Program-made: the position numbers and the translations under genes
Assembly (NCBI RefSeq): GCF_024639685.1
Contig: NZ_JAHEHX010000004.1
Location: forward strand, 1 to 64,000
From: Polaribacter sp.
GTDB lineage: Bacteria; Bacteroidota; Bacteroidia; Flavobacteriales; Flavobacteriaceae
DNA length: 64,000 nucleotides
Reading direction: 5' to 3'
Notes under the pieces: model-generated
What the model was told of the DNA's origin: nothing
Seen by the model: only the letters and a program-made list of their open reading frames with translations
Databases searched by the model: none
Shown: one piece after another, positions 9,012 to 35,257 of the stretch
Position numbering within the stretch: position 1 is the first letter of the stretch
Layout: each line of letters starts with the position of its first letter

Positions 9012-9078
9012 CGACCGCTAAAATAACCGCTGACGAAATACGTGAATGTTATTCTGGTAAAACTATAAATATTAAGAT
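9012..9078 (+). promoter_or_regulatory. Candidate ribosomal protein bL19 leader RNA
   Basis: 5' UTR with paired AATAAC (9022-9027)/GTTATT (9048-9053) enclosing ACG/CGT; directly upstream of rplS. Confidence 0.45.
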
Positions 9079-19678: not shown

Positions 19679-21766
<2,088 letters not shown>

Positions 21767-30495: not shown

Positions 30496-33303
30496 TTATT
30501 TCAATTTCTTTTTAACTGCTACTTCTTTGTATGCTTCTATAACATCACCCTCTTGAATGTCATTATAGTTTTTGATTTGTAAACCACAATCATATCCTTT
30601 AGCTACTTCTTTAACATCGTCTTTAAAACGTTTTAATGAAGTTAAAACACCATCATGAACAACAATTCCATCTCTAATAATTCTAATCTGAGAATCTCTA
30701 AAGATTTTACCAGAAATTACCATACAACCTGCAATGTTACCCACCTTAGAAATTTTATAAACTTCTCTAATTTCTACATTACCAGTAACCTCTTCTTTCA
30801 TTTCAGGAGATAACATTCCTTCCATAGCATCTTTAAGGTCATTAATTGCATCATAAATAATAGAGTATGTTCTAATATCTACTTCTTCTCTATCAGCTAC
30901 AGCTCTTGCATTTCCTTGAGGTCTTACATTAAACCCTACAATAATTGCGTCTGAAGCAGTGGCTAGTAAAACATCGCTTTCTGTAATGGCACCAACACCT
31001 TTATGTAAAATATTAACTTGAATTTCTTCTGTAGATAATTTTTGGAAAGAGTTTGTTAACGCTTCTACAGAACCATCTACATCTCCTTTTAAGATGATGT
31101 TTAATTCCTTGAAATCTCCAAGAGCAATACGTCTTCCAATTTCGTCTAACGTTAATGTTTTCTGTGTTCTCACAGATTGTTCACGTTGTAATTGAGAACG
31201 TTTTGTTGCAATTTGTTTTGCTTCTCTTTCGTCATCAAAAACTAAGAACTTATCACCTGCTTGTGGGGCACCGTCTAAACCTAAAATAGAAATTGGCGTA
31301 GAAGGTCCAGCCTTTTTTAATTTTTGACCTTTATCATTAAACATAGCTTTTACCTTACCACTATGCTTACCTGCTAAAATATAATCTCCAACCTCTAAAG
31401 TACCTGCTTGAACTAAAATTGTGGTTACATAACCTCTACCTTTATCTAATTGTGCTTCCACAACTGTACCAACTGCATTTTTAGATGGATTTGCTTTTAA
31501 CTCTAACACCTCTGATTCTAATAATACTTTTTCTAAAAGTTCATCAACTCCTTGTCCTGTTTTTGCAGATATATCTTGAGATTGGATATTTCCTCCCCAT
31601 TCTTCAATCAACAAATTCATTTTAGATAATTGTGTCTTTACATTATCAGGGTTTGCATTTGGTTTATCAATCTTATTGATTGCAAAAATAATTGGCACAC
31701 CAGCTGCTTGAGCATGAGAAATAGCTTCTTTTGTTTGTGGCATTACATCATCATCTGCTGCTGCTACAATAATTACTAAATCGGTTACTTGTGCACCTCT
31801 GGCACGCATGGCAGTAAATGCTTCGTGACCAGGTGTATCTAAAAATGCAATTTTTTGATCTCCTACCTTTACAGAATACGCTCCAATATGTTGCGTAATT
31901 CCTCCACTTTCACCTTCAATTACATTTGCATTTCTAATATAATCTAAAAGAGATGTTTTACCATGATCTACGTGACCCATTACAGTAATGATAGGAGCAC
32001 GAGTTTCTAAATCTTCTGGTTTATCTTCTACCTCTTCTATAGATTCTTCTACTTCTGCACCAACGAATTCTACTTTGTAATTAAATTCTTCAGCAACAAT
32101 AACTAATGTCTCAGCGTCTAAACGTTGATTCATTGTAACCATCATCCCTAAAGACATACATGCAGAGATAATGTTTGTTACTGGAACATCCATCATTGTT
32201 GCAACCTCACTAACGGTAACAAATTCTGTTACCTTTAAGATTTTGTTGTCTAATTCTTGTGCTTCTAATTCTGCTTCAGATTGTTCTCTTCTTGCATCAC
32301 GTTTATTTCTTCGGTATTTAGCACCTTTACCTTTAGAAGACTTTCCTTGTAATTTTTCTAAGGTTTCTCTTACTTGTTTTTGGATTTCTGCTTCAGTTGG
32401 TTCCTCTTTTTTAATAGGAGTTCTTGTGTTTCCTCGTCCACCTTTAAAACCTGTGTTTCTAGCTCCGGCACTTCTATTTCCTGGGCCTATATTACCTGTT
32501 GGTCTTCCAACACCTCCTCCTGCAGGTTTACTTATTCTTTTACGTTTCTTTTTGGCGTCTGCACCAGCTTTGTTTACTTCAGGCTTCTTTTTCTTAGGCT
32601 TTTCAAATTGTTTTAAATCAATCTTTTTACCAGTAAAATTAGGCCCATTTAGCTTTTTGTACTCTGTTTTTATTGCTTCTGCATTTTCAGCAGTAACCTC
32701 CTCAGAAGAATCCTCAGGTTTATTAGCATCAGACTTTACTTCTGAAAGTTTTACAGGTCTTGAAGCTTTCTCTATTTCAGAGATAGGTTTCTTTTTTATT
32801 TCTTTCTTTTCTAATTTAGCAACTTTAGCTTCTTTAACCTCTTCGGGTTGTTCTATAATTTCTTTCTCAACAGGCTTTTCGGATTGCTTTTCAGAAATAG
32901 GCTCTTCTACTGAAGATTCTTCCTTTTCAATATTTTTTTTACCGGCTGTCTCTATTTCTATTTTACCAACTGTTTTGAACTCTAGTTTTTCTGCTTTGGC
33001 TTTAAGAATTTCTTCTTTTTTATCCTCTTCTGCTTTTTTCTTCTCTAATTTAGCTTCAAGCTCCAAACGAATTGCCTCTTTCTCTTTACGTTTTTCCTCG
33101 CCAACTTCTTTAGATGCAGCTTTCTTATTTGCATCTGTTTCAAAGCCATCTTGTAATACTTGATAGATATCAGATGATATTTTAGTGGTTGGTCTTGCTT
33201 CTATATCATGACCATTATTCGCTAAATATTCAACAGCTCTATCAAGAGAAATATTTAACTCTCTTAAAACTTTATTAAGCCTCATTGTTTTGCCTACAGA
33301 CAT
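30496..33303 (-). CDS. infB: Translation initiation factor IF-2
   Basis: [75 protein letters not shown]. Confidence 0.98.
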
Positions 33304-33362: not shown

Positions 33363-34619
33363 TTAGTCCTCGAATTCTTCTTTCAAGATTCTTTGAACAT
33401 CAATTATCGTTTCTTCTTCTAAATCAGTTCTTTTTACTAATTCAGCAACACTAGTCTCTAACACGCTTCTAGCGGTATCTAAACCAATTTTCTTGAATTC
33501 TGTAATTACCCAGTCTTCAATTTCATCTATAAATTCAGTTAACTCTACATCTTCTTCTTCTAAACCTTCTCTTTGAACGTCTATTTCGAAGCCAGTTAAC
33601 TCACTTGCTAATCTAATATTAACTCCACCTCTACCAATTGCTTTAGAAACTTCTTCTGGTTTTAAAAGAACGCTTACACGACCTTTTTTACCGTTCTTTT
33701 CTTCTTCATACATTGTAATTTCCATCGACGTAACCTTTGCAGGGCTTAATGCTCTGGATATAAATAACTGTTCATTCTTAGTGTAATTAATAACATCTAT
33801 GTTCTCATTACCCAATTCTCTAACAATACCATGAATTCTAGATCCTTTAACCCCTACACAAGCTCCAACTGGATCTATTCTATCGTCATAAGAATCTACA
33901 GCTACTTTTGCTTTTTCTCCAGGTATTCTTGCTACCCCCTCAACAGTTATTAATCCATCAAATACTTCTGGAATTTCTTGCTCGAATAATTTTGTTAAAA
34001 ATGTTGGCGATGTTCTTGATAAGATAATGGCAGGTTTATTACCTCTTAGTTCTACAGTTTTTATAACCCCTCTTACATTATCTCCTTTTCTAAAAAAGTC
34101 AGAACGAATTTGTTCACTTTTAGGAAGTACAATTTCGTTACCTTCATCGTCTAACAAAATAATTGCATTATGGCGTATATGGTGAACTTCTGCGCTAAAT
34201 AGATCTCCTTCTAAATCTTTAAATTGTTTAAAGATATTTGTACTATCATGCTCATATATTTTTGAAATCAAATTTTGACGTAAGGCTAAAATTGCTCTTC
34301 TTCCTAAATCTATTAATTTCACCTCTTCCGAAACATCTTCTCCAATTTCAAAGTCAGGTTCAATTTTTCTAGCTTCAGAAAGTTCAATTTCCTCATTATC
34401 ATCTTCAGAAAAACCATCTGCAACAACAACTCTATTCCTCCAAATTTCTAAATCTCCTTTATCTGGATTTATGATAATATCAAAATTATCATCTGAACCA
34501 AACTTACGTTTTAAAGCGGCTCTAAAAACTTCTTCTAAAATAGACATTAAAGTTACTCTGTCTATACTTTTATTATCTTTAAACTCTGAAAACGAATCAA
34601 TTAACGCTATATTTTCCAT
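33363..34619 (-). CDS. nusA: Transcription termination/antitermination factor NusA
   Basis: S1/KH architecture: RIDPVGACVGVKGSRIHGIVRELGNENIDVI, AIGRGGVNIRLASELTGFEIDV. Confidence 0.96.
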   Translation of the reverse strand: MENIALIDSFSEFKDNKSIDRVTLMSILEEVFRAALKRKFGSDDNFDIIINPDKGDLEIWRNRVVVADGFSEDDNEEIELSEARKIEPDFEIGEDVSEEVKLIDLGRRAILALRQNLISKIYEHDSTNIFKQFKDLEGDLFSAEVHHIRHNAIILLDDEGNEIVLPKSEQIRSDFFRKGDNVRGVIKTVELRGNKPAIILSRTSPTFLTKLFEQEIPEVFDGLITVEGVARIPGEKAKVAVDSYDDRIDPVGACVGVKGSRIHGIVRELGNENIDVINYTKNEQLFISRALSPAKVTSMEITMYEEEKNGKKGRVSVLLKPEEVSKAIGRGGVNIRLASELTGFEIDVQREGLEEEDVELTEFIDEIEDWVITEFKKIGLDTARSVLETSVAELVKRTDLEEETIIDVQRILKEEFED

Positions 34620-34630
34620 TACATCTTTAC

Positions 34631-35092
34631 TTAAAATACAATCTTCACTTTTGCTTCTTTAATTTCTTTATATGTTAAAGTTGCCGATTTTTGTACGGTA
34701 ACTTTTCCTTTACCTATTGGTTTTGGCTCTCTTGTTTTCCAATTTAGCACAATCTTTTCATCATCTGCTTCTACAAGAGTTCCTTCTAATTTATCTTCTG
34801 CAGTCTTTACTTTTAATATCCTATTGATATTTTTTACGTACTGCCTTCTTTCTTTTAATGGGTGAGAAATATCTGGAGTTGTCACTTCGAGTGAGAAATC
34901 TTCTTCTTCTCTGTCTAAATTATGCTCTACATTTCTACTAATTCTAATGCACTCGCTTAGGGGAACTCCATTATCACCGTCTACTGTTATTTGAATTTTA
35001 TTATTCTCAGAAATTACAATATCAATTAAAAATAGACTTTCATTTAATGCTAAAGCTTCATCTATTAAATCTTTAATTTTCTGTTGATTCAT
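34631..35092 (-). CDS. rimP: Ribosome maturation factor RimP
   Basis: GVPLSECIRISRNVEHNLDREEEDFSLEVTTPDISHPLKERRQYVKNINR. Confidence 0.93.
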   Translation of the reverse strand: MNQQKIKDLIDEALALNESLFLIDIVISENNKIQITVDGDNGVPLSECIRISRNVEHNLDREEEDFSLEVTTPDISHPLKERRQYVKNINRILKVKTAEDKLEGTLVEADDEKIVLNWKTREPKPIGKGKVTVQKSATLTYKEIKEAKVKIVF

Positions 35093-35118
35093 AAAAACCT
35101 TTCTTTTGAGTATAAAAA

Positions 35119-35139
35119 GAGGGGACTTTAAGTCCCCTC
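35119..35139 (-). terminator. Intrinsic terminator/attenuator in the rimP-nusA-infB leader
   Basis: Minus strand GAGGGGACTTAAAGTCCCCTCTTTTT ending about 25 nt before the rimP ATG. Confidence 0.75.
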
Positions 35140-35166
35140 ATTTATCAAACATTGCTAAATTCTTTG

Positions 35167-35197
35167 CAAATATACAAATTGTTTGCAATTAAGCAAA
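35167..35197 (-). promoter_or_regulatory. Bacteroidota sigma-A-type promoter for rimP-nusA-infB
   Basis: Minus strand TTTG (35197-35194) - N19 - TATATTTG (35174-35167), matching TTTG-N19-TAnnTTTG. Confidence 0.65.
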
Positions 35198-35257
35198 TGG
35201 AATCTTACTCATTTTAATTACAACAAAAAGGAATTTAGAGTAATCTTTTTTTATAAA

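Follow-up and report, generated by a model that had tools for sequence, protein, structure and literature searches.

A conserved promoter-proximal terminator ahead of rimP-nusA-infB as a candidate attenuator with NusA feedback in Polaribacter and other Bacteroidota

Organization of the rimP leader

The window analysed here is a stretch of 64,000 nt of DNA from Polaribacter sp., in which rimP, nusA and infB follow each other on the minus strand (Table 1). The Pfam identities of the products are RimP_N, NusA_N plus KH domains and IF-2 for the three operon genes and RecR for the gene upstream of rimP.

Table 1. Features of the rimP-nusA-infB leader and operon in the window
Feature	Coordinates	Strand	Remarks
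Sigma-A promoter, flavobacterial type	35167..35197	-	TTTG 35197-35194, N19, TATATTTG 35174-35167
Pre-hairpin untranslated leader, ~23 nt, transcription start site (TSS) estimated	35140..35162	-	A-rich, not conserved, without antiterminator partner
Terminator hairpin GAGGGGACT-TAA-AGTCCCCTC	35119..35139	-	Folding, compensatory changes, unique in genome
Interrupted U-tract TTTTTATA	35111..35118	-	TTTTT 35118-35114, then ATA
rimP, first gene of the operon	34631..35092	-	ATG at 35092; PF02576
nusA, proposed feedback regulator	33363..34619	-	NusA_N and KH domains (Pfam)
infB (IF-2)	30496..33303	-	Pfam

The initial annotation had described a promoter and a near-perfect intrinsic terminator ending about 20 nt ahead of the rimP start. 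The promoter TTTG-N19-TATATTTG is present exactly at 35197-35167 (-), and the terminator was confirmed to the base at 35139-35114, with a GC-rich stem of nine pairs, six of them G-C, followed by TTTTT; 21 nt separate the end of the T-run at 35114 from the ATG of rimP. The statement that no room is left for a promoter after the hairpin is true in the window, where 26 nt lie between stem and ATG. The stem arms form a perfect 9-bp palindrome shortly after the promoter, and the leader in front of it is C-poor as well as A-rich.

For the 86-nt rimP leader a minimum free energy of -20.4 kcal/mol was calculated (z = -2.6), which beats about 97% of its shuffles, and the hairpin alone is strong (about -15 kcal/mol). 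It ranked first among the terminator-like sites found by a consensus scan of the region 28-42 kb. Among 46 window genes, a comparable hairpin within 150 nt upstream was found only for rimP and for one other gene, an FMN-oxidoreductase gene (19679-21730), whose hairpin sits behind the 3′ end of the ORF upstream.

Conservation, range and specificity of the hairpin

The leader sample consisted of 80 named Flavobacteriaceae-like loci and of further genomes from the genus, the family, the order and the phylum; the named relatives put the window with Polaribacter-like Flavobacteriaceae. Since the expectation from shuffles is very low, the main comparison was with genuine sequences in front of other genes. 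With a simple terminator finder, a hairpin within 150 nt before rimP was detected in 79 of the 80 Flavobacteriaceae leaders vs 17 of 206 other genes at the same loci, most of these 17 being genes divergent from rimP that read the same palindrome from the opposite strand. The simple finder misses the mismatch-bearing hairpins of other classes, and a scan based on ViennaRNA was added, by which 238/246 Bacteroidota rimP leaders vs 5/84 control genes had a terminator within the upstream 150 nt. Leader conservation in other Flavobacteriia, which the initial annotation had named as a check, is borne out by these counts and extends over the phylum.

Within the Flavobacteriaceae leaders, identity was mostly 75-97% in the stem columns and 97-99% at the first four T of the T-run, whereas most of the pre-hairpin leader reached 23-66%. 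Of the 80 named relatives, 77 have a TAnnTTTG box 21-31 nt ahead of the stem, and the distance from stem end to rimP ATG had a median of 15 nt. In five relatives (L064, L065, L096, L267 and L274) the same hairpin is 104-131 nt away from the start codon of rimP, separated from it by additional sequence, and at this distance a further promoter after the hairpin could be present. Outside the Flavobacteriales the stems vary by lineage with their place unchanged (e.g., GTGGGG/CCCCAC, ATGGGC/GCCCAT, TAGCCC/GGGCTA and TCGCCC/GGGCGA). The rimP terminators of one family (f27) have a C-rich 5′ arm (TCGCCC...GGGCGA), the inverse of the usual G-rich arm; leaders with such inverted arms include L143, L153, L157, L158, L160, L167, L168, L170 and others, and their arm order resembles the CCCg...cGGG orientation described for the gammaproteobacterial upstream terminator.

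The pattern GGGGAC-N3..9-GTCCCC occurs a single time in the 2.46-Mb genome. When 151 Flavobacteriaceae genomes were searched for GAGGGGAC-N3..9-GTCCCCTC, exactly one site per genome was found in 121, while the reversed control pattern occurred in one genome only; genomes without the exact motif have variant hairpins instead. Sites could be checked in the 47 genomes for which both motif and RimP_N positions were listed, and all 47 lie on the correct side of the RimP_N domain, 53-96 nt before it.

Selection on RNA structure

For the analysis of base pairing, leaders were located through the -7 box, regardless of pairing, and then aligned. Standard pairs made up 92% of the cells of the eight core pairs vs at most 76% when the partners were slid. 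Several stem positions were swapped from G-C to A-T or C-G, with 92 double-sided compensated cells vs 90 broken ones; of the latter, 40 are at the outermost pair, and others arise where the alignment shifts the loop. Variant stems with both arms changed include GAGCGGAC/GTCCGCTC, GAGAGGAC/GTCCTCTC, GAGGGGAT/ATCCCCTC and GAGGCACG/CGTGCCTC, and the length of the loop differs by several nt among relatives. Judged by these substitutions, the rimP palindrome is an RNA hairpin under selection, together with its U-tract.

Search for antiterminators, leader peptides and known RNA families

Across 105 leaders, no segment was found whose pairing with the 5′ arm would reach half the stability of the terminator. 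An antiterminator or riboswitch was therefore rejected, as the leader offers neither the room nor a pairing partner. The window leader holds the mini-ORF ATG-TTT-GAT-AAA-TGA; despite this, a leader peptide was rejected as well, since closed mini-ORFs are depleted, being present in 3 of 105 leaders vs 20 +/- 4 in shuffled leaders. It gives the impression that translation is kept from starting spuriously close to the terminator.

The Rfam model RF01770 (rimP) describes a leader of the same gene, but its 102 positions gave no match at the window locus and none above cut-off in 20 relatives, where scattered matches all stayed below cut-off. Other Rfam families near the site (L20_leader, MCS4 and others) were discarded, their matches being far below the gathering cut-offs and mutually inconsistent. 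Elsewhere in the window, the L19-Flavobacteria ribosomal protein leader RF03130, a known cis-regulator, was found at 9024-9051 (+) with 39.8 bits; it is the only regulatory RNA of the window above the Rfam threshold.

Interruption of the U-tract

In the consensus tract downstream of the stem, UUUUUAUA, positions 6 and 8 are A, whereas 79% and 45%, respectively, of the 3′-end terminators from the same loci have T there; the p-values of these statistics are inflated by the relatedness of the sequences, and the pattern alone was relied on. NusA-dependent terminators are said to have weak hairpins in many cases. With regard to the suboptimal character of NusA-stimulated terminators, the interruption of the U-tract is of this type; the strength of the rimP hairpin counts against a NusA-dependent reading. 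According to PMC8060035, which cites Mondal 2016, terminators that depend on NusA feature interrupted U-tracts, and NusG-dependent terminators likewise favour them. The conserved interruption at rimP fits what NusA feedback would predict.

Alternative roles of the hairpin

In the window, recR is co-directional with rimP and ends about 120 nt upstream, so that the hairpin might simply end recR transcripts, an alternative which the initial annotation had itself raised. It fails in the relatives: of 70 classifiable cases, 68 have a divergent gene upstream of rimP, mostly one of the UspA family, and the same hairpin is kept there. In the closest relative (L003, 93% RimP identity) a divergent UspA-family gene intervenes between recR and rimP. 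This gene is missing from the window (35093-35257) and from L005, both with genomes of about 2.1-2.5 Mb and an unchanged hairpin, and recR thus adjoins rimP in the window due to its loss. Moreover, a promoter with tightly kept spacing is located between recR and the hairpin. A simple recR terminator was therefore rejected as very improbable; the hairpin may still stop stray readthrough from recR as a side effect. The position of a perfect palindrome immediately after the promoter would also suit a DNA operator for a dimeric repressor. However, the half-sites co-vary by base pairing, the T-run is present on one side only, and the spacing of the half-sites varies by several nt among relatives; this candidate was rejected, and is scarcely conceivable, because a dimeric repressor would not tolerate such variation in loop length. 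Finally, a stem ending a median of 15 nt ahead of the ATG could protect the mRNA 5′ end or tune the initiation of rimP translation. Such a role would not need the T-run, whose conservation (0.97-0.99) is nevertheless exceeded in the leader only by that of the -7 box, and in some relatives more than 100 nt separate the hairpin from the ATG; this explanation is hardly more credible than the operator.

Proposed mechanism

The conservation of the hairpin, the paired substitutions, the tie of the site to rimP, the exclusion of recR and the lack of an antiterminator or leader peptide together make it very likely that the promoter-proximal terminator acts on the transcript of the operon itself. The proposal of the initial annotation, an attenuator ahead of rimP-nusA-infB, has strong support from conservation, covariation, gene context and the missing antiterminator. 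As neither an antiterminator nor more than a few closed mini-ORFs were found, the efficiency of the terminator itself would be the regulated quantity. RNA polymerase would initiate about 23 nt ahead of the hairpin and reach the intrinsic terminator about 50 nt past the start, where some polymerases would halt and release a short RNA, while the remainder would continue into rimP-nusA-infB. NusA stimulates pausing and hairpin formation. It would thereby increase the stopping fraction, and abundant NusA would lead to less transcription of its own operon. We infer that termination occurs at this site, with what efficiency, and that NusA is the factor setting it. The leader is, in our judgement, probably a minimal antiterminator-free attenuator of rimP-nusA-infB with feedback by NusA, and if so, the cell would probably meter its own supply of NusA.

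NusA feedback is the best-supported mechanism and appears most likely because of its precedents in B. subtilis, S. agalactiae and E. coli and the interrupted U-tract. A real operon attenuator could also respond to a regulator other than NusA, such as RimP, IF-2, NusG, another RNA-binding protein specific for the GGGGAC/GUCCCC stem or growth-state polymerase pausing. The near-invariant stem, unique to rimP and exceeding the needs of a generic terminator, speaks for this, as does the favour of NusG, too, for interrupted U-tracts, and a protein reading the stem was argued for by Naville & Gautheret (PMC2965389). Against it, NusA is the sole operon product with a direct precedent, and the stems of other lineages are quite different at the same place, so that a fixed recognition sequence is not required phylum-wide; another regulator is unlikely, though worth keeping in view. 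In the Flavobacteriaceae, the stem is kept in sequence beyond its structure, a constraint that a generic NusA effect does not need. That the GGGGAC/GUCCCC stem is a putative sequence-specific RNA site for NusA or another operon product in the Flavobacteriia is a doubtful but conceivable extension. If true, termination would be switched by sequence-specific binding beyond the general effect of NusA on hairpins, and in other Bacteroidota lineages the stem would have been adjusted to match the protein of the respective lineage. A constitutive partial terminator, fixing a lower expression of the operon without feedback, would agree with the lack of a visible sensor domain, antiterminator or leader peptide. 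It is nevertheless improbable, since the promoter is an easier place to fix a level, and the near-universal retention in the phylum together with the presence of nusA in the operon favours feedback.

The reach of the element over the phylum suggests that regulating NusA through a promoter-proximal terminator is either very old or a trait that was kept repeatedly. With a length of about 50 nt, the leader is also a simple natural substrate for measuring the action of NusA with a flavobacterial polymerase.

Comparison with known systems

The rimP-leader, present in many bacteria, was called the most ubiquitous attenuator in 2010 (Naville & Gautheret, PMC2965389), in a paper whose main text does not mention Bacteroidota. 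As described there, it is a terminator with a T-run, placed 4-130 nt ahead of the gene within the 5′ UTR of rimP-nusA-infB, with a G-rich 5′ arm, a C-rich 3′ arm and no antiterminator, and its motif is specific to rimP; the present leader shares these features, with 0/105 antiterminators, one site per genome and all of the 47 checked sites at rimP. The stem differs, being GGGGAC/GTCCCC here vs GGGc/gCCC in that description; GGGC...GCCC is present in other Bacteroidota lineages, and one family has inverted arms. The flavobacterial leader belongs with the rimP-leader kind in most of the tested features, the GGGc/gCCC motif being only approximated.

In B. subtilis, NusA is reported to be autoregulated by NusA-stimulated termination in the 5′ leader (PMC12288461, citing Mondal et al. 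2016). In both organisms a 5′-leader terminator of the nusA operon would act on its own transcript and control the amount of transcription entering the operon. The dependence on NusA was shown in B. subtilis and is proposed for the present case; the rimP leader there has 180 nt (PMC2965389), while here the terminator is about 50 nt past the estimated TSS, and the hairpin here is strong. The gbs0413-gbs0418 operon (rimP-nusA-infB) of S. agalactiae resembles the present leader in being short and in having its terminator near the TSS: transcription stops 31 nt downstream of it, and feedback by NusA has been put forward (PMC4448216). It differs in that RNA-seq of S. agalactiae revealed RNAs of both lengths, short and long, that share one TSS. 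For E. coli, repression of its own operon by NusA is reported in papers cited in PMC2965389 and PMC4448216.

In F. psychrophilum, the -7 consensus is given as TAnnTTTG, and a structured 5′ transcribed region upstream of rimP was reported in 2021 (PMC9723704). That element belongs to the same family and gene, is shared by other Flavobacteriaceae genera and had no Rfam hit; the main text of that paper describes neither a structure nor a terminator or mechanism. It is probably the same hairpin as here, and the rimP terminator would then account for this 5′ element. Compared with these systems, the base-by-base anatomy of the leader, its covariation, the rejection of a recR terminator and of an antiterminator, the conserved interruption of the U-tract and the phylum-wide extent are new, and a probable terminator-only feedback attenuator of the core rimP-nusA-infB operon is extended to essentially the whole of the Bacteroidota in the GTDB sense, other classes included.
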